This document shows positions 28,682-40,721 of a DNA stretch of 40,721 nt, piece by piece. The translations under genes and the position numbers were made by a program. Location of the stretch: contig JARLHL010000025.1 of assembly GCA_031292275.1 (NCBI GenBank), positions 1 to 40,721 on the forward strand. The letters run 5' to 3'. The DNA is from Desulfocapsaceae bacterium (GTDB lineage: Bacteria; Desulfobacterota; Desulfobulbia; Desulfobulbales; Desulfocapsaceae). A model generated the notes under the pieces. That model was not told the origin of the DNA. It was given only the letters and a program-made list of their open reading frames with translations, and did no database searches. Position 1 is the stretch's first letter, and every line of letters starts with the position of its first letter.

Positions 28682-29198
28682 TTTCTGTCTCCCGAGGGGA
28701 ATAGGCCAAAACAATCCTGAGAAATATCTCTGATCCGATGATCGCGAATGAAGGTTTTCAGCAATGTATACAATTCCCCCCTGCCGCCATCAAGGAATAA
28801 TCCATGTATTTCACCGGGCAGCCCACTCTGCCGGACCGGCCAGCCACGACCTGATTTGCAAACTCATTTCTCCGGCATGGTGTGGCCACTGGTCCTGGAA
28901 GGCTTTCCTCTACACCTTTTATCTACAGACCCGTTCTCTCTTAAGACCATCGCAAGCCCAACCCAAATCCCCTCCCAGCCCCAGATACTGTTGCGCTTTA
29001 TTGAATACCTGTATATTCTGCTGTAAAATTCCTGCGTCCGGCCCCAAATCCTCATCGTCCGGCCGCCGCATTCCCCGGCGGGGCCTGCTGTTATCCGGCC
29101 GGCGAGATCGGTTCTTTTAGAACAGATCAGGACATGCAGCTTCCCCGAACAGGGGAAATTTTCATTTTCACAATTTATTCTGACATTATACAATACAC
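28682..29198. other. Divergent intergenic region upstream of mscS-type gene
   Basis: These 517 bases contain no reading frame resembling a protein. Near 29141-29157 a 6-bp stem TTCCCC/GGGGAA with loop GAACA precedes ATTTTCATTTTC. It lies about 10 bases before the -35 box of the following gene and looks like a small terminator on the forward strand. Nothing else was identified. Confidence 0.5.
29167..29194 (+). promoter_or_regulatory. Promoter placing transcription start at the mscS-type ATG
   Basis: TTCACA (29167-29172) and TACAAT (29189-29194), each five of six consensus positions, are separated by 16 bases. The expected transcription start is within a few bases of the A of the ATG at 29199, and no Shine-Dalgarno sequence precedes it. 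Confidence 0.45.
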
Positions 29199-31565
29199 AT
29201 GATCTCCTTCATTACCGATTCGGACAGAACCCGCCCAAAGGCCTTCACCATAGCCTTCTGCATATTTCTGCTCTCTTTTCTGTCTGTGTCCCCTGCTTAT
29301 TCCGCCGAATCCGAGATGCCGGACTTCGACTTCGACCAGACCCATACCACACTCCAGGAAATCTCCAACCAGATAAAAAATGGTCCGATCTCGCCGCAAA
29401 AGCTGGAAAAGGCAAAACAGCAGGTTGATCAGTTTGCCAAGTCAACCACTGCCTGCATTGACACGTCAACGGCCCAGATTGCCACTGTGGACCAGGAAAT
29501 AGCGACCCTCGGCCCCAAAGCCGAAAACGAAACGCCGGAAATAGGAAAGGAGCGAAAACGGCTCACCAAAGAAAAGCAGGTGCTTCAACTCAGCCTGTCT
29601 GAGTGCAAACTCATCGCAATCCTGACATCCAGGATACAAAACGACCTGACCGATCAGAATAAGGCCCTGCAGGCTGCCGCTTTTTTCTCGAAGTCCCCGA
29701 ATACCTTCAGCAAAATGATAAACAGCCTTCCGACGCCGGCTGATCTTGAGACATTATCCCTGCAATACCTCAGCAATCAATCAGGCCTGCAGGCAATGAC
29801 TCCGCTGAATATTTCAATTTTCGTCATCCTCATGGCAGCGGGCTGGTGGCTGGGATTGAAGATTTTTCAGATCCTTATCCTGTACCTCAGATTCATGCGG
29901 ACCGACAACCAGGAGAATCCGGAACCTCCTCTCTCGCTGAGACAACGGCTGGCCCTGCCGGTCACGCTGGCTACGGCGATGTGCGGATGCTATCTGTACT
30001 ATGTGAATATGGCCTCGCCCAGTCTTGTCTATAGCCCGTGGCTGTTGTTTTCCATCAGCCTCTATTTTCTCTGCCTGTTTATTTTCCGCTTCCGGATTCA
30101 CAAGAAGAAGAACACTAACCCGGAGTCATCGGCTCGCCCTCCGGCCATACGTTTCAAGATACTGGTCTCACTCTGTGCACTGATGTTTTTTGTCTCCCGC
30201 CTCGACCTGAGCGATTACAACGGCCTCGCTTCACTTCTGATCCTTATCCAGTCTGCCCTCGTATTCGGCATTTGCCTGGCCACCTGGTGTCTGTTATGGA
30301 CAGTCAAACTTCCCGAACGAATTTCCCGATTTAAAAAACTGCTGCATACGGGGATCTCGGCAGTGGCACTGATCGTCATGATCATTGAGATCTCAGGCTA
30401 CAAGAACCTGTCCACCTTTCTGCTCCTGGGCTTTCTGGCGACGTTTTTCCTCTGCAACCTTCTCTGGCTGACTCTTTTCGCCATCGATGAAATTTTCGGC
30501 GGTATCTTTCTGGGAAAATATCAATGGCAGAAGAATGTCCGTATCTGGCTCGGGTTTTCACCACAGGAAAAGCCCGCAAGCATTATGTGGATACGGCTTA
30601 TCTTCAGGCTCCTGTCCTGGTCCGTCGCCCTGCTGCTGCTTTTGCGCGTCTGGGGGTGCTCCGACGCCCAGAACAAGATCATCATGTCATACCTGCTCAA
30701 TGGATTTGATTTTGGAGGCCTGATTTTTGCGCCGGCACGCATCCTTTTGGGATTTTTCATTTTTGCCTGCGGCTGGATCCTGATCTCGTGGATCAAGAGG
30801 GAGATGGAACAAAAATGGCTGCAGCAGTCCTACTTTTCCCAAAGCGAGAAAGACAACCTGGTGACCATGACGGGATATGTCGGTTTTGCCCTGATCCTGC
30901 TCATCGGCATCTCAGCTGCCGGGGTCAGCTTCTCCAATCTGGCAGTGATCGCAGGGGCCCTGTCTGTCGGCATCGGTTTTGGCCTGCAGAACATCGTCAA
31001 CAACTTCGTTTCCGGCCTCATCATCCTCTTCGAGCGGCCGATCAAACGGGGAGACTGGATCAGCGTCGGCAACACCCAGGGATATGTGCAGAAGATCAGC
31101 GTTCGCTCAACAGTGATTCAGACCTTCGATCGTTCCGACGTCATCGTCCCCAATTCCGAGCTGATCTCCCATCAGGTCACAAATATGATGCTCAATGACA
31201 ACCATGGCCGCCTTATCATTCCAATCGGAGTTGCCTATGGAAGCGATACAGATCTAGTCAGCAATATTCTGCTGGATATCGCCAGGGCCAACGACAAGGT
31301 CATTAAAGATGGTTCTGCCCCAGCACCCCAGGTCCTGTTTCTGGCCTTCGGCGATAACTCGCTGAATTTTGAGCTGCGCTGCTATCTAACCAATATTGAC
31401 CAGGGCATGAAGGTCAAGAGCACCATCAACTATGAGATAGACCGGGCCTTCAGGAAACATGGCATTTCCATCCCGTTCCCGCAGCGCGATCTCTATATTA
31501 AGGAATTCCCTGCAACAACCATTCGGCCGGCAGCGGAGGAAAAAACCCCGGAAAAAGACATATGA
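29199..31565 (+). CDS. Large MscS-family mechanosensitive channel (MscK/MscM-like)
   Basis: The 788-residue protein starts with a signal peptide (AFCIFLLSFLSVSPAYSA). A charged, helical, coiled-coil-like periplasmic region follows (about residues 45-190). About ten membrane helices lie between 205 and 600. The pore helix and beta domain carry the MscS signature: NLAVIAGALSVGIGFGLQN, NFVSGLIILFERPIKRGDW and DRSDVIVPNSELISHQVTN. The cytoplasmic tail is short. It should open under membrane tension to release solutes during osmotic downshock. No Shine-Dalgarno precedes the ATG, and no alternative start fits the signal peptide. Confidence 0.9.
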   Translation: MISFITDSDRTRPKAFTIAFCIFLLSFLSVSPAYSAESEMPDFDFDQTHTTLQEISNQIKNGPISPQKLEKAKQQVDQFAKSTTACIDTSTAQIATVDQEIATLGPKAENETPEIGKERKRLTKEKQVLQLSLSECKLIAILTSRIQNDLTDQNKALQAAAFFSKSPNTFSKMINSLPTPADLETLSLQYLSNQSGLQAMTPLNISIFVILMAAGWWLGLKIFQILILYLRFMRTDNQENPEPPLSLRQRLALPVTLATAMCGCYLYYVNMASPSLVYSPWLLFSISLYFLCLFIFRFRIHKKKNTNPESSARPPAIRFKILVSLCALMFFVSRLDLSDYNGLASLLILIQSALVFGICLATWCLLWTVKLPERISRFKKLLHTGISAVALIVMIIEISGYKNLSTFLLLGFLATFFLCNLLWLTLFAIDEIFGGIFLGKYQWQKNVRIWLGFSPQEKPASIMWIRLIFRLLSWSVALLLLLRVWGCSDAQNKIIMSYLLNGFDFGGLIFAPARILLGFFIFACGWILISWIKREMEQKWLQQSYFSQSEKDNLVTMTGYVGFALILLIGISAAGVSFSNLAVIAGALSVGIGFGLQNIVNNFVSGLIILFERPIKRGDWISVGNTQGYVQKISVRSTVIQTFDRSDVIVPNSELISHQVTNMMLNDNHGRLIIPIGVAYGSDTDLVSNILLDIARANDKVIKDGSAPAPQVLFLAFGDNSLNFELRCYLTNIDQGMKVKSTINYEIDRAFRKHGISIPFPQRDLYIKEFPATTIRPAAEEKTPEKDI

Positions 31566-31662
31566 ACCGGTCATAAAGAGCACACATGCTGCGGGTAAGA
31601 GGTGAAATGCAACGCCGGCACCGACTGTGAGTGTCTTTCTTCACTTCGCCGGCCAGGATGGC

Positions 31663-32547
31663 CTAAAAGGGATAGACGTACTCGCTCTTCGGCGTATCGG
31701 TCTCGACAACGCTGTCAGCCACGACTATCGGCACCTTCGTTCCCTTGTAGGTGATGATCCTGATCGTCCCCGTGACCTTTACCCAGCTGTCGCCTGCAAG
31801 GCTCTTCGCCTTATCATACCGGCAGAGCATACCGACCACCTGCAGGTCAGCCGTGCAGCAGATCATCAGCAGTCGGGCAGGGACAAATTCATTGCCCTTG
31901 ACCTGCTTGCCCCTGAACACAAATCCAACCATCTGTATCTTTTTACCCCGATATATCTCCTGATTATCATAGATTTCCTTCAGCCACCGAAAGTAATTGC
32001 CATCATCTACGATCACCATATTATCCTGCAGTTTCAGCCTGCGGTCGGCTGGACTGGTTGCCAGAGAGGCCAGGGCCTCATAGTTTGAACTGTTGACCTC
32101 AACTGCACCGGGGTTATCGGAACTCAACGATTTTTTTTCATCATTCTGTCCACTTTCATCTGTATAGTCGCCCTCGGTCCCCCTGGGAACGACAGCGGCC
32201 GGAAGGCCCTTGACCTGACGGCCAATCGCAATATCACCCAGCGGCATCGACGCTGAGTTCATTGACTGCGCCGGCAATGAAAAGGCAAGAATCAACGGAA
32301 CGATGAAAAAGAAATACGGTGCAACTCGAGCCCGGCGCCGGGGCCTGAAGACCTCCCTGAGGGTAAACAGGGCGATCAGGACCATTGCCAGAACACCGAA
32401 TTTCAAGGATGGGACAAGCCGGGGATTGACATAGAGCTGCACCCGCCCCGACTGAATGAGATACGAGAAAAACAGCGCAAAGCCCAGGAGAATGCCAATC
32501 TTCAGGGTCGCCTCGATATTAATCTTTCGCCATTCCAGAAAACGCAT
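31663..32547 (-). CDS. YcgQ/DUF1980 (TIGR03943)-family membrane protein
   Basis: The 294-residue protein has three or so N-terminal membrane helices (LKIGILLGFALFFSYLIQSG, LKFGVLAMVLIALFTL, PYFFFIVPLILAFSLP). A polar linker rich in Ser/Asp/Glu follows, then a C-terminal soluble domain containing VGFVFRGKQVKGNEFVPARL, LMICCTADLQVVGMLCRY and SWVKVTGTI. This matches the family typified by B. subtilis YcgQ, whose partner is the YcgR/YraQ permease encoded here directly upstream. The CC pair in the soluble domain could bind metal. The ATG at 32547 has GAGGCAGG upstream; a GTG at 32559 overlapping the previous stop is possible. It is the last gene of the metal unit. Confidence 0.82.
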   Translation of the reverse strand: MRFLEWRKINIEATLKIGILLGFALFFSYLIQSGRVQLYVNPRLVPSLKFGVLAMVLIALFTLREVFRPRRRARVAPYFFFIVPLILAFSLPAQSMNSASMPLGDIAIGRQVKGLPAAVVPRGTEGDYTDESGQNDEKKSLSSDNPGAVEVNSSNYEALASLATSPADRRLKLQDNMVIVDDGNYFRWLKEIYDNQEIYRGKKIQMVGFVFRGKQVKGNEFVPARLLMICCTADLQVVGMLCRYDKAKSLAGDSWVKVTGTIRIITYKGTKVPIVVADSVVETDTPKSEYVYPF

Positions 32548-32555
32548 ATCCTGCC

Positions 32556-34142
32556 TCACAGGTGAATGGTGGACAACAGCAAAACAAATGACACCCCGAA
32601 GACCAACAGCACCAGCCTGACCACAAATCCCTTTCTGAAGCGTCCCAGCAGCATCAGAAGATTTTTCATATCTATCATCGGCCCCAAGACCATAAAACCC
32701 ATGACGGCCCCCAGAGGAAACTGATTGACAAAGGTCCTGGCAATAAAGGCATCCGATGTAGAGCAGACCGAAAGGACAAAGGCGAAGAGCATCATGATCA
32801 GCAGGGACAGGACGAATCCGCCGCCTGAATTGACGATGATATCCTTTGGTATCATCGTCTGCATGATACTGGAGAGAAGCGCCCCGGTAATCAGATAGCG
32901 GCCGACATCGAAAAATTCGGTGCCCGCATGACTGAATATTGCCTCCATCTTTCTCCAGACCCCAGCCTCAACCGTCCTCTCTCCACAACAACCACAACTG
33001 CAGGAAATATCCGTAAGACCATAAAGAAGCACAGCTTTTTCAGAAAAGGTCCGTGATATCTGTCCTGCCGCAAGAGCGATTGCCGCCCCCAGACAGAGCC
33101 GGTACAAGACCACCTCGTGCTGGCCGGGAAAGGCGTAAACAGTGGAGACGATGACCAGAGGATTGACAATGGGGGCCGCCAGCATGAAGGTGACCACCGT
33201 CGGCAAGGGAACTCCTTTTTTCAAAAGCCGGGCCGCCACGGGAATGACAGCGCAGTCACAGACAGGAAAAAACAGACCAGCCAGGAGGGCGACTATACAC
33301 CCGGCCCCCTTTCTCCTCGGAAAGAGCCGGACGACGGTCTCGCTGGAGACCAGGACCTGAAGCGCTGCAGAAATAATCACCCCGAACAGGATGAAGGGAA
33401 AGGCCTCGATCAGAATGCTGATGAATACGGTATTCAGCCCCCGCAACCGGGCCACGACCGCATCCAGGCGGCCGGCATTGAAGGCATGGATCAGGATTGC
33501 CGTAAGACAGACCGTAATCACCACCATAAAACCGGCGAGGATCAGACTGGAGGGCCTGCCGTCCGCCGGCCCTGAATGGCCCAACAGTCCGCCTTGAGGC
33601 CGCCCGCCCTCCCCGGCCTTTACAGCCCCGGTAATCCTGGCCGAAGAGTTGATCTCTCTCAGGGTCTTTTGCAGGACCATCTGTTTTTCTCTGCTTAAGG
33701 TCTCGGACTTATTTACCACAACCATATCACTGCAGGAAATCTGCTCCTGCAGGATTCCTCTCATATTGGCCATGAAGATATCGAAGGTGGCCGCATCAAC
33801 GGCAGTGATGATCCGTTGAATTTTCCAGGTCCTGTCTGAAGTTGCTCCTTCCAGGGCCTCCAGCACATCCCCGGTCCTTCCCATTCCGTTCAGTTCAATA
33901 ATTATCCTGGCCGGATGATGATCCTCGATTATCTGGTCAAGGCGCCCGGCATCAATTTTTTCATCCTTCGCCACCTGTTCGGCGACAACCAGGCCGTCTT
34001 CAGGCGGCACAAGGTCCTGTTCACCGTATTCGCCCTGAATAACGACAGTTCTGCCCTTCACTGTCTTTTGCAGCATGGAATTAATAAGGGTGGTCTTGCC
34101 CGACCCTAAAAAACCGGAGACAATATCGACCTGCACCTTCAT
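32556..34142 (-). CDS. COG0523 (G3E) GTPase fused to UPF0718/YraQ-type permease
   Basis: One 528-residue frame joins two normally separate proteins. Residues 1-about 185 are a COG0523 GTPase domain: Walker A GFLGSGKTT (10-18), EYGEQD (38-43), Walker-B-like IIIELNG (80-86) and NKSE (144-147). It lacks the GCxCC metal motif and the CobW C-terminal domain. A Gly/Pro-rich linker (about 177-198) leads to a permease (200-528). The permease has FPVCDCAVIPVAARLL (Cys295, Cys297), LAAPIVNP (322-328), a Cys cluster SCSCGCC (380-386) and SVCSTSDAF (458-466), as in the YcgR/YraQ permeases. AAGGGG precedes the ATG. It starts 16 bases after the stand-alone GTPase. Metal transport powered or gated by the GTPase is inferred. 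Confidence 0.9.
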   Translation of the reverse strand: MKVQVDIVSGFLGSGKTTLINSMLQKTVKGRTVVIQGEYGEQDLVPPEDGLVVAEQVAKDEKIDAGRLDQIIEDHHPARIIIELNGMGRTGDVLEALEGATSDRTWKIQRIITAVDAATFDIFMANMRGILQEQISCSDMVVVNKSETLSREKQMVLQKTLREINSSARITGAVKAGEGGRPQGGLLGHSGPADGRPSSLILAGFMVVITVCLTAILIHAFNAGRLDAVVARLRGLNTVFISILIEAFPFILFGVIISAALQVLVSSETVVRLFPRRKGAGCIVALLAGLFFPVCDCAVIPVAARLLKKGVPLPTVVTFMLAAPIVNPLVIVSTVYAFPGQHEVVLYRLCLGAAIALAAGQISRTFSEKAVLLYGLTDISCSCGCCGERTVEAGVWRKMEAIFSHAGTEFFDVGRYLITGALLSSIMQTMIPKDIIVNSGGGFVLSLLIMMLFAFVLSVCSTSDAFIARTFVNQFPLGAVMGFMVLGPMIDMKNLLMLLGRFRKGFVVRLVLLVFGVSFVLLLSTIHL

Positions 34143-34158
34143 AAACGCCCAACCCCTT

Positions 34159-35136
34159 TTATACTGTTATGCCGAAATGCCGGCAAAGCCCGGTACGGTC
34201 GAGATCTTTCCCGATAATGCAGAGCCTTCCCGTATACTCTGCAGGGCTTGGCTGCATGCCGCACTCACCGGGAACATAATCAAACTGCACCCAGTTGCCC
34301 TCCCGGGTCTGCACGATTCCTTTCCCCCTGAGGACCATGCCGAATCTCTTTTCTTCCAGGGCATTCAGCCGCGCTGCGAGTTCCTCCGGGGTAAATACCA
34401 GCGGTGTTTCAACGCCCCATACATCGAATGTCCCCGAGGCATCGCCTGCATGGGGCAGATCCCCTTCACAGCAGCAGTCCTTTTGATACAGGGGCAAAAT
34501 CGACTGCAATCCCGCAGCCTGCTCAGGAAACAAAAGACGTTTACCCTCAGCAGCAGCAATGATGCGTCCGGCGGCAAGACTCTCCCAGGGGGTTGTTATG
34601 ATGGCAGCGGCAGGATTTGATCTTCTGATTGAACCGACAAGCAATTCAAGGTCAATTGCATCGATTTCCTGCGTCCTGCTGAGCACGAGTGTTGTTGCAT
34701 GCTTAATCTGATCATCAAAGAATTCCCCGAAATTCATACTGTAGAGTCGATACCTGCATGCATCAATAACGGTAATGAGCATAGTTAGATCAAGTATCTC
34801 CCGCAGCTTCTCACCTTTACAGACCGCTTTGATCTCCGACAGCTTCCCGACACCCGACGGTTCGATAATGATCCTGTCCGGCCTGTAGGTAGAGATTATC
34901 TCCTCAATGGCCCCGCTGAAATCCCCCGTCAGGGAACAGCAGATGCAGCCGGAGGTGATTTCCCTGACCTTGACACCCGTATTTTGCAGGATGCTGCCGT
35001 CTATACCGATCTCACCAAATTCATTTTCCAGTATGACCAGATTATGACCGGAAAATTCCTCCTTGATAAATTTCTTTATCAGTGTCGTTTTTCCGGCCCC
35101 TAAAAATCCGGAAATTATATCCACTTTTGTCCTCAT
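34159..35136 (-). CDS. COG0523 (CobW-type) metallochaperone GTPase
   Basis: The 325-residue protein is a full-length G3E GTPase. It has Walker A GFLGAGKTT (10-18), ENEFGEIGID (37-46), the metal-binding GCICCS (63-68), IIIEPSGVG (89-97), a tri-Cys insert CCC at 221-223 near acidic and His residues, and a C-terminal CobW domain (residues about 235-325, EKRFGMVLRGKGIVQ). The guanine-specificity motif NKxD is replaced by SRTQ (153-156). Such proteins deliver Zn, Co or Ni to targets. The ATG at 35136 starts at the P-loop strand; a GTG at 35148 is an alternative. The 100-bp tandem repeat begins 23 bases before it, so its promoter must lie in or beyond the repeat. Confidence 0.9.
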   Translation of the reverse strand: MRTKVDIISGFLGAGKTTLIKKFIKEEFSGHNLVILENEFGEIGIDGSILQNTGVKVREITSGCICCSLTGDFSGAIEEIISTYRPDRIIIEPSGVGKLSEIKAVCKGEKLREILDLTMLITVIDACRYRLYSMNFGEFFDDQIKHATTLVLSRTQEIDAIDLELLVGSIRRSNPAAAIITTPWESLAAGRIIAAAEGKRLLFPEQAAGLQSILPLYQKDCCCEGDLPHAGDASGTFDVWGVETPLVFTPEELAARLNALEEKRFGMVLRGKGIVQTREGNWVQFDYVPGECGMQPSPAEYTGRLCIIGKDLDRTGLCRHFGITV

Positions 35137-35159
35137 ATCGATCCACACATCAAATCAGA

Positions 35160-35359
35160 GAAACCAGCAGGGCTGGACCAGACTGGCCAATCTCGGCAAA
35201 TTATGAAAACCCGTCACTTCGGCAAGGCAATGCCGTCGCTCTGACGAGACATTCATATAGAAACCAGCAGGGCTGGACCAGGCTGGCCAATCTCGGCAAA
35301 TTATGAAAACCCGTCACTTCGGCAAGGCAATGCCGTCGCTCTGACGAGACATTCATATA
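35160..35359. repeat. 100-bp tandem duplication
   Basis: Copy 1 (35160-35259) and copy 2 (35260-35359) are directly adjacent and identical except at 35182 (A) versus 35282 (G). Each starts GAAACCAGCAGGGCTGGACC and ends GACGAGACATTCATATA. A CCAGC/GCTGG mini-hairpin lies at the left end. A diverged third copy lies at 40404-40504. The following 161 bases to the NicO stop (35360-35520) hold no identified gene. The repeat sits directly upstream of the COG0523 gene. Confidence 0.95.
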
Positions 35360-35520
35360 AAAAAACGATTTCCGAAAAACTCGGCCGGAAAGTTCCGCCT
35401 TAAATCTCAACTCTCCGTGCTCATACCCCTCGGTGAGCTGAAGAGCAAGAAAAAGTTGTAAAAGAGCCATATGGCCCTCCGAGCGGCAAGGACGAAAAAA
35501 AGAGCAAAACGGATCGGAAA

Positions 35521-36939
35521 TCAGATATGGAGGGTCAGGATACCAGCCTGAAAAAGGGCGCTGGTCCCGATGCAGAGGCCGAGCACCATGATGATCCCGG
35601 CGCTGAAAACCGGCAACCGCCTGATCCATCCCGCGGTCGAACGAAAACCGCGGACATGCCTGGAGGCCGTAACCGTCAGGATACCGATGAGGACGAGCAC
35701 GGAGGCAAGCCCCAGACTGAAACTCAGAATTACAAGAATTCCTGTCGGAATCCGATTGACGGCAATGGCAAAAAGCAGGATGACAAGAGCGCTGGGACAG
35801 GGAACAAGGCCTCCGGCGATGCCTAAGGAAAAAATCTCTTTCAGCGTGGGAGAGGAGGCCTCACCATGGGGCCGGCAATCGTGATGGTGAGGATGATGGT
35901 GATCCTCGCCCGCCAGGGCGCGCCTGACCAGCATGGCATAGCCGGTCAAACATATCAGGGTGCCGGAGGCAAGCCCCAGCCAGGGGAAAAAATCTTTAGA
36001 GAGGGTGTAATGGGAGGCGATAAGGGCCAGCGCCCCGAGGACAAGCACCGAAAAGACATGGGTCAGGGTGACAATGACACCTAATTTGACGGCATCCGCA
36101 ATCCGTCCCTGAGCACCAACCAGATATGCCGCCACCATCGCTTTGCCGTGCCCCGGCCCCAGCGCATGAAAGGCCCCGAGGATTAAGGCAGTGGCAAAAC
36201 CCATCAGACGCAGACCGAGAGATCCCGATCCCAAGGCGAATTTCAGGGTTTCGGTCTCGGATTTTTCTTCCTGGCCCTTAATGCCTGCGATACCCGCCAC
36301 GGCAACCTGCTGCCCACCGGAAACCGCCGTGCTGCCGGATAACTCCACTGTCAGTTCACGTCCGCCATCGGCAAGGTGCATGGGGCCGGTCTCCCCCATG
36401 ACGTTGACGGCATAGCTCAGCTGGTCCAGCTCACCGCTCCTGAAATTATTGTCCCTGATGCTGAATACCCCCTGGCTGCCACGGGGCAGAGAGAGGCGCC
36501 AGACGAACTGCGTATTCAGCCCCTTGGTATAATCTCCGGCATCCTCCAGGACCACCTTCCTGTCAACTTCCTCAAGAGGCAGTTCTCTGGTCCCCAGCCT
36601 GCAGATGATGTTCGGGACAACGAGCCCATGGATACGCTCAAGAAATCCGGCCTTTTCGCCATCGTCAAGCACGCCATTGAAGTCGGTATCCGGATGGAGG
36701 GTCAGCAATACATCCGGTCCGATATGGGTATTGTATTCGATCAGAATACTTGTTGTGAGATTGGAAATCACAGTCTTCTGCAGCACCCCGCCCAGAGGAT
36801 GAGCGTCAAGGGGCAGAACGCCTGTGCAGAAGGAAACTACCAGCGCCAGAAAGAGCGGCCGGCGGCAAAACAGGGCGGTCCGCAGAGATGCCGCCACGCC
36901 TCTTTCCCGCTCCCCCTTAATTGCAGCCGTTTTCATCAT
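35521..36939 (-). CDS. NicO-type nickel/cobalt transporter with periplasmic EF-hand-like domain
   Basis: The 472-residue protein has two parts. An exported N-terminal region (signal segment LFLALVVSFCTGVLPLDA, then about residues 48-235) holds an EF-hand-like loop DTDFNGVLDDGE at 84-95 with all ligand positions. The C-terminal six-helix part is an RcnA/NicO transporter with FHALGPGHGKAM (257-268), a His-rich cytoplasmic loop DHHHPHHHDC (346-355) and GGLVPCPSALVILLFAIAVN (376-395). The family moves Ni or Co, usually outward in RcnA. The ATG pair at 36939/36936 has AGGAA upstream. The gene follows the Usp gene by 44 bases in the Nramp-Usp-NicO series. Confidence 0.88.
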   Translation of the reverse strand: MMKTAAIKGERERGVAASLRTALFCRRPLFLALVVSFCTGVLPLDAHPLGGVLQKTVISNLTTSILIEYNTHIGPDVLLTLHPDTDFNGVLDDGEKAGFLERIHGLVVPNIICRLGTRELPLEEVDRKVVLEDAGDYTKGLNTQFVWRLSLPRGSQGVFSIRDNNFRSGELDQLSYAVNVMGETGPMHLADGGRELTVELSGSTAVSGGQQVAVAGIAGIKGQEEKSETETLKFALGSGSLGLRLMGFATALILGAFHALGPGHGKAMVAAYLVGAQGRIADAVKLGVIVTLTHVFSVLVLGALALIASHYTLSKDFFPWLGLASGTLICLTGYAMLVRRALAGEDHHHPHHHDCRPHGEASSPTLKEIFSLGIAGGLVPCPSALVILLFAIAVNRIPTGILVILSFSLGLASVLVLIGILTVTASRHVRGFRSTAGWIRRLPVFSAGIIMVLGLCIGTSALFQAGILTLHI

Positions 36940-36983
36940 CGGGTCATTTCCTGTCCCCGCAATCCATCCGGCAGACACGGTTT

Positions 36984-37904
36984 TCACGATACGCGGTCCT
37001 GCGGCTCAGATATTTCCGGTGTTGCAGGTACCAGCAGCAGCGGAACAGGAGAACGGCTGGCCACGTCAGGTGTGGCACTCCCCGACCAAAAGGCATCCAA
37101 CCCCGTTTTACCGTGGGTTGCCAGGACAACGAGGTCCGCCCCTGTCCGGTCCGCGGTGCTGCCGATGATCTTGGCCGGATTGCCCCGACGGACAGCGGCG
37201 GTGGCCGTAAAACCCGAGGCCTGCAGATCCGTTAGATGGCGCTGCAGATATTGCCTTGCATCCTCTTCAGCCAGGTCAAGGAGAGCTCGGGTCACCCGGG
37301 GCAGCATCTTGGCCGTCACAGCCTTCTCGCCCGAGAGGGTGCTGGAGGTATGAACAACCATAATCAGATGCAGCTCAGCCCGATAGATTTCCGCAAGCCT
37401 TTTCCCGAAACGAAGCCCCTCCTCATGATCAGGGTTGCCGTCCAGGGGCACCACAATCTTTCTGCAGGTAAACCCCTCTGACGCCGGCGGCACCAGAAAC
37501 AACGGCGTTGAGACGAGACTCATCACCTGCTGGGCTATCCTGCCGAAGAGGAAACCCCGCAGACCGCCGCTGCCGTGCGTGCACATACTGATGAGATCGG
37601 GACCGAACTCCTGAACATGCCCGGCAATACTGAGGGCGACATCCCGCACCTCATTGGCATGGACATGCAGGTCTATCAGCACGCCGGAAGAAATAAAGCG
37701 GGCGGCCACCTCATCGAGATAGCCCTGGGCCTCATCGGGGCTGGTCAGATGCCTCTGGCCATGGACCTCCCGGGGGGCGCCTCGCTCAATGACATGCAGC
37801 AGGGTGAGCCTGGCTCCCTGCCCGCCTGCAAGATAGACTGCAGCCGGCAGCGCAGCCTCAGCCATCTTCGATCCATCAAGGGGGACCAGCAGATGTTTAA
37901 ACAT
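36984..37904 (-). CDS. Tandem universal stress protein (UspA family)
   Basis: The 306-residue protein has two Usp domains: MFKHLLVPLDGSKMAEAAL to about STPLFLVPPAS (residues 1-150), and CRKIVVPLDGNPDHEEG to PVPLLLVPATPE (about 155-300). Both keep a nucleotide-binding-type loop, THGSGGLRGFLFGR and THGKTGLDAFWSGS. It starts four bases after the Nramp gene, so it is probably co-expressed with it. Coupling of a Usp protein to a metal transporter is common in such genomes, but the partner role is unknown. It differs clearly from the other tandem Usp protein in this window. Confidence 0.9.
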   Translation of the reverse strand: MFKHLLVPLDGSKMAEAALPAAVYLAGGQGARLTLLHVIERGAPREVHGQRHLTSPDEAQGYLDEVAARFISSGVLIDLHVHANEVRDVALSIAGHVQEFGPDLISMCTHGSGGLRGFLFGRIAQQVMSLVSTPLFLVPPASEGFTCRKIVVPLDGNPDHEEGLRFGKRLAEIYRAELHLIMVVHTSSTLSGEKAVTAKMLPRVTRALLDLAEEDARQYLQRHLTDLQASGFTATAAVRRGNPAKIIGSTADRTGADLVVLATHGKTGLDAFWSGSATPDVASRSPVPLLLVPATPEISEPQDRVS

Positions 37905-37908
37905 AGTA

Positions 37909-39213
37909 TTACCCCGTTACAAAAACCTGATAGACCAGATACACGTTTAGCATCAATATCAAGGCCGCCACCATACAGGTAACGGCTGTGGTCAGAACAT
38001 GGTTTACCAATACACCCATCAGGGATTTACGTCTGGTAAACAGAATCAAGGGTATGATCGCAAATGGAAGGCCGAAACTGAGAACAACCTGGCTGATGAC
38101 CAGGGTGCGGGTCGGATCGAGACCGATGAGGATGACGACCAGTGACGGGACAATGGTGATCAACCGACGGATCCAGACAGGGATGCGACGCTTGAGGAAT
38201 CCCTGCATCATGACCTGTCCGGCCATGGTCCCGACAGCGGATGAGGACAAACCTGAAGCAAGCAGCGAAACGGCGAAAATCCAGCTTGAGGCCTTCCCCA
38301 ACAGGGGCTCCAAGGTCTGATGCGCGGTCTCAAGAGTTGCGACATCGGTGAATCCGTGCCTGAAGAAGGTCGATGCCGCCATGATAAGCATGGCCATGTT
38401 GACAAGACTGGCCAGCCCCATGGCGACAATGACATCCGCCATCTCATAGCTGAAGAGCCGTTTGAGCTGCCGCGGCTCCTTTACGACAATACGCCCCTGG
38501 GTCAGGGCTGAGTGCAGATAAATAGCGTGAGGCATGACCGTTGCACCAACGATGCCCGTCGCCAGCAGGACGCTCTCCGTTCCGGAAAACTGGGGCACGA
38601 CGGAATGAAGGATCACATCGCCCCAGTCAGGCTTATCCAAAACGGTCTCTATCAGGTAACTGAACGAAACAACACCGACCAGCGCCGCGATCACGGCTTC
38701 CAGCGGCCGGAACCCGTATCGTTCAAGCCCCAGAATAAGAAAGGTGGTGATTGCAGTTAATATGCCGGCCAGCCAGAGAGGAATGTGGAAGAGGAGATTA
38801 AAACCGACCGCAGCGCCTATAAACTCGGCCAGATCCGTCGCCATGGCGACAATCTCCATCACTGCCCACATCAACACAACCGTCGGACGGGAGAAATTGT
38901 CCCGGCAGTGTTCGGCAAGATTCAGCCCGGTGGCAATCCCGAGTTTGGCAGAGAGCCCCTGAACCAGCATGGCCATCAGATTACTGGCGACGATGACCCA
39001 GAGAAGCAGATAACCAAACTGGGCCCCACCCTGGATATTGGTCGCAAAGTTTCCCGGATCAATATAGGCGACACTGGCGATGAAGGCCGGTCCCATAAAG
39101 GGAAGAAACCGCGACAGCCCTCCCTTCCCGCCTCCATCCGATAAAATCTCCATGGCAGAATCGACTGTTCCCCGATGATTATCAGACCTCTGTTTCGGTG
39201 TAGTCTCATTCAT
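37909..39213 (-). CDS. mntH: Nramp-family divalent metal (Mn/Fe) transporter
   Basis: Imports Mn2+ or Fe2+ by proton symport across the inner membrane. The 434-residue protein has about eleven membrane helices. Helix 1 carries the metal-binding DPGN at 52-55 (YIDPGNFATNIQGG), and helix 6 carries the ATVMPHAIYLHSAL motif that holds the metal-binding Met and the MPH signature. The N-terminal 30 residues are polar. The ATG at 39213 has only a weak ribosome-binding site, and a Met at residue 21 is an alternative. It heads the six-gene same-strand unit and is separated from HU by a 13-bp-stem hairpin. The symbol is a family guess. Confidence 0.88.
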   Translation of the reverse strand: MNETTPKQRSDNHRGTVDSAMEILSDGGGKGGLSRFLPFMGPAFIASVAYIDPGNFATNIQGGAQFGYLLLWVIVASNLMAMLVQGLSAKLGIATGLNLAEHCRDNFSRPTVVLMWAVMEIVAMATDLAEFIGAAVGFNLLFHIPLWLAGILTAITTFLILGLERYGFRPLEAVIAALVGVVSFSYLIETVLDKPDWGDVILHSVVPQFSGTESVLLATGIVGATVMPHAIYLHSALTQGRIVVKEPRQLKRLFSYEMADVIVAMGLASLVNMAMLIMAASTFFRHGFTDVATLETAHQTLEPLLGKASSWIFAVSLLASGLSSSAVGTMAGQVMMQGFLKRRIPVWIRRLITIVPSLVVILIGLDPTRTLVISQVVLSFGLPFAIIPLILFTRRKSLMGVLVNHVLTTAVTCMVAALILMLNVYLVYQVFVTG

Positions 39214-39296
39214 GACAGCAGTTCAGGAGAAATGACGGAGTTTATGAGAGGAAGAGGAAATCGCAATCCGGAACGCATATCGTACTGCCGGCGCCC

Positions 39297-39337
39297 TGAA
39301 GGAAAAGCCCGGCAATGCGCATCAGGCTTTCCCTTCA
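39297..39337 (-). terminator. Hairpin between HU and Nramp genes
   Basis: A 13-bp stem (39297-39309 with 39325-39337, one mismatch) and a 15-base loop lie about 30 bases after the HU stop. There is no strong T-run, so termination may be partial. Confidence 0.5.
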
Positions 39338-39365
39338 ATGGCAGCACAATCACCTCAGAGGACCC

Positions 39366-39638
39366 TTAATTGATTGCTTCCGACAGCTTGCTTCCCGCCT
39401 TGAACCGGGCTACCTTCTTTGCCGGAATTTTTATGGTCTCGCCGGTCTTGGGGTTTCTCCCCTCACGCGACTCGCGTTTTGACACTGAAAAAGTACCAAA
39501 GCCGACAAGAGTTACCGTGTCGCCTTTTCCAAGGGTCTCTGATATGGCCTTCAAAAGACCGTTCAAAGCCTTCTCGGCAGAAGTGATATTTATTTCAGCC
39601 GCACCAGCAATACTTTCAACCAATTCTTTCTTATTCAA
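39366..39638 (-). CDS. hup: HU-family DNA-binding protein
   Basis: A small nucleoid protein that binds and bends DNA. The 90-residue product has the HU/IHF dimer fold: NKKELVESIAGAAEI at the N-terminus, GDTVTLVGFGTFSVSKR and the DNA-arm GRNPKTGETIKIPAKKVARFKAG. This is the normal length. The initiation codon is TTG at 39638, placed seven bases after AGGAGG. The only nearby ATG, directly after that site, opens a four-codon out-of-frame peptide. It is likely monocistronic, with its own promoter and a following hairpin. Confidence 0.93.
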   Translation of the reverse strand: MNKKELVESIAGAAEINITSAEKALNGLLKAISETLGKGDTVTLVGFGTFSVSKRESREGRNPKTGETIKIPAKKVARFKAGSKLSEAIN

Positions 39639-39664
39639 AATACATCCTCCTCAATAGATTTTTC

Positions 39665-39693
39665 AATATCACTGATAAATAACATTTTCTCAA
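39665..39693 (-). promoter_or_regulatory. Sigma-70-type promoter for hup
   Basis: On the reverse strand TTGAGA (39693-39688) and GATATT (39670-39665) are spaced 17 bases apart. The predicted start is about 20 bases before the TTG codon. Confidence 0.4.
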
Positions 39694-39774
39694 CCATACC
39701 CCGGACCACATTCATGCGGACCGGCAACACGACACGTTGAGTCTTTGACACATCATAAGGAATTCCGAAAAGCC

Positions 39775-39794
39775 CTGCAGAGGCCTTTCTGCAG
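39775..39794 (-). terminator. Hairpin after the DUF3795-like gene
   Basis: A perfect 7-bp stem CTGCAGA/TCTGCAG with loop AAGGCC lies about 23 bases after the stop and is followed on the reverse strand by GGGCTTTTC. This is a weak intrinsic terminator. Confidence 0.4.
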
Positions 39795-39816
39795 ACTACA
39801 GCAAGAGAAAAATCAT

Positions 39817-40209
39817 CTACTTATCGGCTTCACCCGGCAAATCAGGGGAACTGCCCCCCGCCCCGTACTGCTGTTTCATGAGTTTGCTGATATTTTCCCG
39901 GGCCTCAGGCGTTGAGGCATGGAATCGATTCAGGTGTTCGCACGGCCTTTTGTTGCAGACCGAACAATTTGCGAGATTTTTGTTACTGCAGCATTTTCTG
40001 ATAAAACAAACATTACAATAACCGATCAGTCTCCCTCCCTCAGAGAGACATCCATCGCAATTGATATCCTCCGGACGTATGCTAAAGCCGAATTTTTTTG
40101 AATAAAGAGCGGCGGTCTTCGCCCTGGCCTCATCGTCATCACTCCGAGTGGCCAGATAGGTCGGGCAATTAGAGCAGACGAGACCGCAATACGCTATCAT
40201 TTTTACCAT
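39817..40209 (-). CDS. Cys-rich DUF3795-like protein
   Basis: The 130-residue protein starts IAYCGLVCSNCPTYLATR, the typical DUF3795 opening with Cys8, Cys12 and Cys15. It continues with further Cys pairs, NCDGC, YCNVC, KCC and NCSVCNKRPCEHL, which could bind one or more zinc ions or an iron-sulfur cluster. The C-terminus is polar and probably disordered. Function is unknown, and the family is common in anaerobes. GAGGAAAA lies before the ATG. It stands alone between HU and the outer-membrane gene. Confidence 0.8.
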   Translation of the reverse strand: MVKMIAYCGLVCSNCPTYLATRSDDDEARAKTAALYSKKFGFSIRPEDINCDGCLSEGGRLIGYCNVCFIRKCCSNKNLANCSVCNKRPCEHLNRFHASTPEARENISKLMKQQYGAGGSSPDLPGEADK

Positions 40210-40403
40210 ATCTTCGTTTTTCCTCTTTCATAGCAGATACTGCAGGCAGGCAAGGCCACCCCGCATCCCGTTTCTTAAGCAGCATACGGTTTCGCAGGGT
40301 CATCCCTGTACCGGACTGAAAAAAAACGTCACCGGACAGAATTCGAGAATATACTTATTCTAAAAAAAGGTCAACGCCTGGTACTTTCCGGCGCTAAAAT
40401 CCT

Positions 40404-40504
40404 CTGACCGGCATGGCTGGACCAGACAGACCAGCCGCAGGCGAAACATGAAATCCCGTCATTTCAGTTTGGCAAGACCAGCATCAAAACGAGACCTTCA
40501 TATA
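40404..40504. repeat. Diverged third copy of the 100-bp repeat
   Basis: It aligns along its whole length, in the same orientation, with the tandem pair at 35160-35359. Shared blocks are GGCTGGACCAG, ATGAAA, CCCGTCA, GGCAA and ACGAGAC-TTCATATA. Here GGCTGG and CCAGCC form a perfect 6-bp inverted repeat. It lies between two same-strand genes, as the tandem pair does. Confidence 0.85.
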
Positions 40505-40580
40505 AACATCCCGCAACCACTTCGTACCCGGCCCTGGGCATCTCGAAGGAGAAAAGGGAGCGGTCTCCATCGAGGACGTA

Positions 40581-40609
40581 CCCATGCCGGCCGTCTAGGC
40601 CGGCATGGG
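40581..40609 (-). terminator. Strong hairpin after the outer-membrane protein gene
   Basis: A perfect 12-bp stem CCCATGCCGGCC/GGCCGGCATGGG (40581-40592, 40598-40609) with loop GTCTA begins 10 bases after the stop codon. No T-run follows, so it is either a terminator lacking the U-tract or a 3'-end stabilising hairpin. Confidence 0.6.
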
Positions 40610-40618
40610 ATTGCCCGG

Positions 40619-40721
40619 CTAGAATTGATATTTCACCAGGAAACTGCCGGTAATGCCTTCATATCTTCCGGCATAGCCCTGGACCACAAAATCCACGGCC
40701 AGACGATCCTCGGCCACTGAC
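40619..40721 (-). CDS. Outer-membrane beta-barrel protein, C-terminal fragment (runs off right edge)
   Basis: The reverse strand reads 33 codons from the window edge to a TAG at 40619-40621. The peptide shows alternating hydrophobic and polar residues (RLAVDFVVQGYAGRYE, GSFLVKYQF) and ends in Phe. A terminal aromatic after alternating residues is the C-terminal signal recognised by the BAM complex, so this is the last strands of a beta-barrel. The barrel type cannot be told from so short a piece. Confidence 0.65.
   Translation of the reverse strand, partial: SVAEDRLAVDFVVQGYAGRYEGITGSFLVKYQF

Follow-up and report, generated by a model that had tools for sequence, protein, structure and literature searches.

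The fusion gene and its neighbours

In the 40,721-nt stretch of DNA analysed here (the window; contig JARLHL010000025.1 of a Desulfocapsaceae bacterium), one reading frame fuses a CobW-type GTPase domain with an ArsP_1 permease, raising the question of whether such a fusion is genuine and of what a G domain could do on a permease. A previous reading of the letters and reading frames (hereafter the sequence-only reading) had placed the fusion at the coordinates given in Table 1 and had left the strand unstated. Indeed, the frame runs on the minus strand for 528 residues without any stop, and the Pfam families cobW and ArsP_1 (PF03773) were matched at residues 5–170 (E 4e-20, 72.6 bits, cut-off 20.7) and 233–521 (E 3e-58, 197.7 bits, cut-off 32.3), respectively. 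The motifs GFLGSGKT and CDC (Table 1), together with NKSE at residues 144–147 and APIVNP at residues 323–328, were all found where that reading had put them; CSCGCC occupies residues 381–386, and the Gly/Pro linker is of low confidence in the model. An AlphaFold2 model of the whole fusion, computed from 35 sequences, reached a pLDDT of 83.9 and a pTM of 0.62, a value that leaves the relative placing of the two halves uncertain. Full-length homologous fusions in other organisms argue against a frameshift or stop near the linker, which the sequence-only reading had named as the possible undoing of the fusion; since these homologues align over residues 1–523, with up to 49–50% identity, a sequencing error, a frameshift or a chance join is ruled out.

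Table 1. Features of the gene set in the window (nucleotide positions are those of the window; residues are those of the fusion protein)
Feature	Position (nt)	Strand	Evidence
Fusion gene, CobW-type GTPase / ArsP_1 permease, 528 aa	32556..34142	minus	ORF and Pfam
G3E-type GTPase domain, residues 1–175, without CxCC and CobW_C	33618..34142	minus	Pfam, Foldseek, motif table
Walker A GFLGSGKT, residues 10–17	34092..34115	minus	motif table
Gly/Pro-rich linker, residues 176–196	33555..33617	minus	pLDDT under 50 at residues 176–195
Permease, residues 197–528, predicted elevator-type fold	32559..33554	minus	Pfam ArsP_1, permease-only model, VIA-align
CDC, residues 295–297, break between two helices, candidate metal site	33252..33260	minus	conservation and model
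SVCSTSD, residues 458–464, second helix break, candidate metal site	32751..32771	minus	conservation and model
CSCGCC cluster, residues 381–386, loop cytoplasmic by topology counting	32985..33002	minus	sequence, topology counting
COG0523 partner (soluble, 329 aa), carrying CICC and CobW_C	34159..35148	minus	ORF, Pfam, motif table
DUF1980 / TIGR03943 (YcgQ-type) partner subunit, 298 aa, conserved R..CC.AD	31663..32559	minus	Pfam, NCBIfam
Tandem duplication of 100 bp (99% identity of the copies), separating the NicO and COG0523 genes	35159..35358	no strand	

The fusion is the middle one of three tightly packed minus-strand genes spanning nt 31663–35148. Directly upstream lies a true COG0523 gene with a CICC motif, absent from the sequence-only reading, whose start is likely the ATG at nt 35136 and which is separated from the fusion gene by 16 bases; downstream, the stop codon of the fusion overlaps by 4 bases the GTG of the DUF1980 gene. 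The overlap, along with the short gap preceding the fusion, suggests that translation is coupled. The latter passes the cut-off of TIGR03943, a putative permease subunit (150.1 bits vs 88.8), and its PDB hits by sequence were all at E 0.7–0.8. Genes matching NicO, Usp and NRAMP (Pfam) are located upstream of the trio on the same strand, the NicO-matching one also matching, below cut-off, a nickel/cobalt efflux model (NCBIfam). The region occupied by these three genes (nt 35521–39213; the NicO protein has 488 aa and a non-NicO N-terminal part) could represent a metal island. No Rfam family was found in nt 29000–40721.

Occurrence of the fusion in other genomes

The sequence-only reading had proposed an architecture search across genomes; scans of other genomes revealed that such fusions recur outside the present one. 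One scan of genome contigs retrieved 30 relatives, comprising 22 single-frame fusions, all from Bacillota, one split fusion and seven stand-alone permeases. In the class to which the Clostridium algoriphilum genome belongs, the permease was found at E<=1e-25 in 28 of 391 genomes, and 19 of these 28 carry the fusion, 14 with a near full-length alignment (one of them, G572, having a stop inside the match) and five with a G half too diverged for the search, which were checked separately. The phylum of a second fusion-bearing genome yielded the permease in 28 of 398 genomes, with five full-length fusions, and the window's own phylum in 20 of 395 genomes at E<=1e-25, with the fusion in the window's genome alone. 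No match spanning both halves was found in 57 other close relatives, and a tblastn search against plasmids gave 95 records, none covering 80% of the query.

The set of 28 fusions used below for motifs left out L072 (split), L095 (the same as L058) and L100 (broken). The split fusion, from Tissierella sp. P1 (L072, 5995–7601), is divided into frames of 144 and 288 aa, and L126 (G1219) contains the same genes as L063. Some long frames of relatives were rejected as fusions, namely those of L041 and L039, on checking, and the 627-aa frame of G946, corresponding to a 600-aa protein with no G-domain match and with an N-terminal part that is PKD-like by eye. At L124 (1020–2822, minus strand), a 600-aa permease of the ArsP_1 family was seen to carry a PKD-like N-terminal part (by eye) in place of the GTPase. 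The second ArsP_1 gene of the window genome (L002; G000:C114:166117–166983) has one in-frame TGA, as several relatives do, possibly coding for selenocysteine.

Origin of the window copy

In the permease tree, the window permease belongs to a supported group of 24 rows that includes 22 fusions, the other side of the branch holding the remaining 6 of the 28 fusion rows and 29 stand-alones. The tree needs three changes of state, and L092, one of the two stand-alones in the 24-row set, has a very long branch. The window permease is closest to fusions from Clostridia, sharing 59% identity with L099, rather than to the stand-alones of its own family; L046 is the nearest in identity for the fused G domain (44%) as well as for the COG0523 partner (61%), and the DUF1980 protein shares 45% identity with L099 and 39% with L046. 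On these comparisons the window copy looks horizontally acquired, and its genes were probably transferred jointly out of a clostridial-type source, with no single donor indicated. Vertical inheritance in the host phylum is unsupported, given the tree placement and the presence of the fusion in one only of the 20 permease-bearing genomes (395 searched). A contaminating contig is unlikely too, since the ThiC encoded on the same contig shares 90% identity with its counterpart in the congener G001 and 82–83% with those of the family members G006 and G011; within the 19 genomes compared, other family members showed 44–61% identity and four gave no match at E<=1e-50. The operon resembles the host in base composition (GC3 of 0.56–0.65 for the operon and of 0.57–0.65 for NicO, NRAMP and ThiC), so that either the transfer is not recent or the donor was of similar composition.

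The fused G domain compared with COG0523 proteins

Foldseek with the fusion model retrieved as top match, through the G domain, the COG0523 GTPase YjiA (4ixm, E 3.2e-06), and the window fusion carries a P-loop and a Walker-B glutamate (IIIELNG) as in the G3E class. The P-loop/Walker A (motif table) and, by eye, the E-x-N-[G/S] motif are kept in 28/28 fusions. According to the available text of Haas 2009 (PMC2770081), all COG0523 members have CXCC. The motif was present in 0/28 distinct fusions (residues 31–130 scanned), and the Pfam family CobW_C was not found in the fusion and was found in the neighbouring protein encoded at nt 34159–35148. Because CxCC and CobW_C are both missing, the fused G domain, judged by its sequence, is not a COG0523 metallochaperone as the sequence-only reading had assumed, and the permease is unlikely to be "chaperone-fed" by its own fused domain.

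The G4 motif of the fusions is varied, being NKSE in the window, TKx[DE] in L060, L070 and L071 (Peptostreptococcus) and altered in the rest (23 aligned, by eye). The soluble COG0523 neighbour has SRT at its G4 site, a reading found in 16 of 29 partners. In a quick tree including just two other COG0523 rows (L040 and L043, the cut-off partner of L063 being left out), the 28 rows of fused G domains formed one side of a branch with an SH-aLRT support of 96, a grouping that makes a single origin of the fused G domain likely. COG0523-type proteins were also observed in 615–628 aa frames of relatives (L038 1652–3520, L040 and L043), that of L038 having an N-terminal extension of about 300 residues.

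Predicted fold of the permease half

A model of the permease only (residues 201–528) reached a pLDDT of 88.4 and a pTM of 0.84. Its alignment by VIA-align gave Z values as high as 14.3, with 289 of 328 residues aligned, a level often attained by helical models through their shared arrangement; more weight is therefore given to the agreement in kind among the 42 listed entries with Z>=7.5, covering INDY, Pho90, NaDC, NaS1, ArsB, YdaH/MtrF, CNT, TRAP and MleN, all of which we take to be elevator or IT-superfamily transporter types, and to the gap below them, the next entry having a Z of 4.2. Foldseek of the same model against the PDB returned no significant match (E 0.45), and no PDB relative of the permease half was found by sequence at E<=0.01. 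Seven residues invariant in 35 sequences (P293, C295, C297, P324, C460, G487 and D491) sit, in the model, at or beside four helix breaks, arranged as in a fold with a pair of hairpins and a pair of broken helices. At the CDC break one helix ends at residue 291 and the next starts at 296; at the SVCSTSD break the corresponding residues are 457 and 461. From the model, the permease is predicted to be an elevator-type transporter of the ArsP_1 (UPF0718, YcgR-like) family, and the metal site would probably be formed by CDC and SVCSTSD at two of the helix breaks.

Under an N-in topology, 13 Lys and Arg residues were counted in inside loops vs 3 in outside loops, which fits a cytosolic location of both the G domain and the CSCGCC loop. 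Cys pairs in the region of this loop occur in 15/28 fusions and in 25/28 stand-alones with the PxC[DE]C motif (31 stand-alones in all), and being common in the latter they are not fusion-specific. The scores against the SO_0444 Cu/Zn efflux (NF033936) and SaoE (NF040736) models, 81.4 of 300 and 76.1 of 325 bits respectively, remained below the cut-offs.

Association with COG0523 and DUF1980 genes

A COG0523 gene was located within 1.4 kb in 26/27 fusion loci vs 0/27 stand-alone permease loci (window excluded; Fisher p 3e-14, a value that is too small, as the test treats related loci as independent), many of the stand-alone loci having flanks of at most 1.5 kb. Adding four further stand-alones (L034–L037) brought the count to 1/31, the one case being L034; by reading, L035–L037 have no COG0523 among ORFs of at least 150 aa. 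DUF1980 was present within 1.4 kb of 27/27 fusion loci counted, in agreement with the link to the downstream YcgQ-type protein drawn by the sequence-only reading. On the fusions' side of the supported branch of the permease tree there is also a stand-alone permease, L055 (Syntrophomonas), in whose genome no match to the window's COG0523 partner was found at E<=1e-10; this pattern, a single case, is as expected if the G domain and the COG0523 partner had been lost jointly.

Metal context

ZnuA-like genes were detected in 13/22 fusion loci, the other nine showing none, and Fur-family genes in 9/22. In L049 the genes form a one-strand run, znuA-znuC-znuB-Fur-COG0523-fusion-DUF1980, with gaps of at most 23 bp and with the Pfam families ZnuA, ABC-3 and FUR present, and L050, L051 and L072 are similar. 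A His-rich stretch (at least 5 His in 30 residues), a zinc-type trait in ZnuA-like proteins, was found in 8/13 of them, four being without it (L044, L045, L047 and L063) and one being a fragment. The three ZnuA-like proteins scanned scored best with the zinc AdcA model, below cut-off, and matched manganese models too. The Fur-family proteins of L049 and L058 had their highest scores with PerR/Fur models and weak ones with Zur, none of them reaching the cut-off; these results make zinc, and Zur, less sure.

The palindrome ATGCAAATG-N5-CATTTGCAT, derived from palindromes upstream of several clostridial operons, was searched in 34 clostridial-type loci (403,629 bases) at <=3 mismatches, and 14 sites were found in 12 loci, 22/34 having none; Markov shuffles gave a mean of 0.64 sites and at most 4. 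All 14 sites are near the start of a znuA, znuC or COG0523 frame, from 52 bases inside to 231 bases upstream, and seven of them are in loci unused for motif finding, some of which are closely related to those used. The palindrome heads the run holding the fusion in seven loci (L044, L047, L049, L050, L051, L072 and L099), and in the other five it precedes znu genes nearby. A metal context, as the sequence-only reading had suggested for the fusion, is supported.

Neither the clostridial palindrome nor a box resembling the one upstream of the genome's own znuA was found in the window. That genome has a strong Zur-type palindrome of its own (contig C16; L114 5735–5872), between znuA and a divergent 517-aa ORF, and the Fur-family protein beside this znu operon scored best with Zur, below cut-off. 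Except for L069 (Oceanobacillus), where a Bacillus-type Zur box with 2 mismatches lies upstream of a stand-alone permease, this type of box was not found at <=3 mismatches in the loci scanned. According to PMC6336718, Zur of B. anthracis binds DNA upstream of BAS1632, an operon with an ArsP_1 permease, and the authors read the boxes as positive regulation, inferred from box position; such regulation would suit export. The ycgRQ genes of B. subtilis are controlled by ECF sigma factors, as given in the accessible part of PMC5584981. Zinc would be the most likely substrate, and the presence of znu-type genes in the clostridial runs would favour uptake, or metal handling during starvation, over export.

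Discussion

The fusion is real, conserved and, as far as the literature was searched, uncharacterised, and it represents known parts in a new combination and not a new category. The sequence-only reading knew of no described system of this kind, and indeed no account of a COG0523–permease fusion was found in the literature searched; an earlier mention is possible and domain databases may list the architecture. That reading stands as regards the genuine fusion, its metal context and its linkage with the YcgQ-type protein, and fails in taking the fused domain for a COG0523 metallochaperone.

Tentatively, and with somewhat less than an even chance of being right, the best model is a metal permease of the elevator type, with a tethered G domain to which the soluble COG0523 protein docks. 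To what was directly computed, that is the fusion, its recurrence, the absence of CxCC, the co-occurrence of the partner and the operator shared with znu genes in Clostridia, it adds features that we infer, namely zinc as substrate, the direction of uptake, the use of nucleotide, the docking and the metal site. The protein would be a two-domain metal permease, in Clostridia belonging with zinc-type uptake genes, with a membrane half acting as an elevator-type permease together with the DUF1980 subunit. Its cytosolic N-terminal G3E-type domain, lacking CxCC and keeping the P-loop and the Walker-B glutamate, would most likely be a module that, depending on nucleotide, docks the neighbouring soluble COG0523 GTPase (CICC) or provides gating for it, and the metal, most likely zinc, would pass between permease and chaperone at the membrane. 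Against this model count the absence of a matching operator from the window, the 22/34 loci without the palindrome, the 9/22 fusion loci without a ZnuA-like gene, the manganese and PerR/Fur matches, the four ZnuA-like proteins with no His-rich stretch, the positive regulation read from the BAS1632 boxes and the ECF control of ycgRQ. A GTPase-gated permease, as the sequence-only reading had suggested, is possible. By analogy with Ffh–FtsY, the tethered domain without CxCC might more specifically act as the receptor that meets the metal-carrying COG0523 GTPase at the membrane, both G domains forming a GTP-dependent pair, with zinc handed directly between transporter and chaperone and release following GTP hydrolysis; we regard this as rather doubtful, and if true it would amount to a targeting cycle for a metal ion.

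The G domain could also act without the COG0523 partner. FeoB has the same domain order as the fusion, a cytosolic N-terminal G domain and a metal permease in one chain, and the fused domain might likewise gate, or sense for, its own permease, with the COG0523 neighbour merely distributing metal in the cytosol and making no contact with the permease. The P-loop kept in 28/28 fusions and the NKSE of the window would agree with this, but we hold it fairly unlikely, as a COG0523 gene accompanies the fused G domain (26/27 vs 0/27), G domain and COG0523 are both missing in L055, a stand-alone among fusions, and most of the 23 fusions aligned have a changed G4. The altered NKxD, with the absence of CxCC in 28/28, could instead indicate a dead pseudo-GTPase, a mere scaffold for the partner or for the DUF1980 subunit; this seems very unlikely to us, because a dead domain would not need the Walker A and the E-x-N-[G/S] that are conserved in 28/28.

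Direction of transport and identity of the metal may be questioned as well. That the permease exports a metal or organometal in detoxification, as named for some ArsP_1 relatives, is clearly unlikely: the SO_0444 Cu/Zn efflux and SaoE models do match, yet far under their cut-offs, and the upstream gene matching NicO and, below cut-off, nickel/cobalt efflux, together with the positive regulation read from the BAS1632 boxes (PMC6336718, available text), would be in line with export, but the gene runs and the palindrome are common with znu-type genes in Clostridia. An identical machine working on manganese or iron instead of zinc appears highly improbable, even if the ZnuA-like proteins match Mn binding-protein models too, the Fur-family neighbours score best as PerR/Fur and an NRAMP gene lies upstream in the window; against it stand the zinc AdcA model as top match for 3/3 ZnuA-like proteins scanned, the His-rich stretches in 8/13 and the COG0523 neighbours.

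Among known systems, docking of a COG0523 partner by a tethered G domain may be likened to the SRP–SRP receptor pair (Ffh–FtsY), an analogy resting on a soluble GTPase and a related one located at the membrane, and structures of the Ffh/FtsY type were distant fold hits of the fusion model (Foldseek). In contrast to Ffh–FtsY, the cargo of a putative heterodimer here would be a metal ion. FeoB belongs to a GTPase class other than that of the fused domain and differs in having a permease of another family than ArsP_1; no FeoB family was present among the Pfam hits of the fusion at E<=1. With the COG0523 proteins (YciC/ZagA, YjiA and CobW) the fused domain has in common the G3E fold, the P-loop and the Walker-B glutamate; unlike them, it has neither CxCC nor CobW_C and forms one chain with a membrane transporter. 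According to PMC9164220, a metal-carrying role is assumed for COG0523 GTPases, many of which are uncharacterised. The gene set described here, which recurs near zinc-type uptake genes of other anaerobes, points to a definite candidate partner and offers a simple way of testing how GTPases of this kind come together with a transporter.

The YcgR-YcgQ, ScfA-ScfB and SMU.746-747 pairs (ArsP_1 and DUF1980) likewise consist of a permease and an adjacent small partner gene. In the available text of PMC5584981, ScfA has 8 predicted membrane segments and ScfB 2, and the S. mutans homologs of ScfA-ScfB matter for acid stress and biofilm; these pairs differ from the fusion in that the same text describes no GTPase domain on the permease and names no metal role. 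Going by the YcgR/YcgQ naming alone, ScfA-ScfB and SMU.746-747 would be of the same families as the window pair, and the fusion could help to assign a function to the uncharacterised YcgR/YcgQ (ScfAB) pairs.
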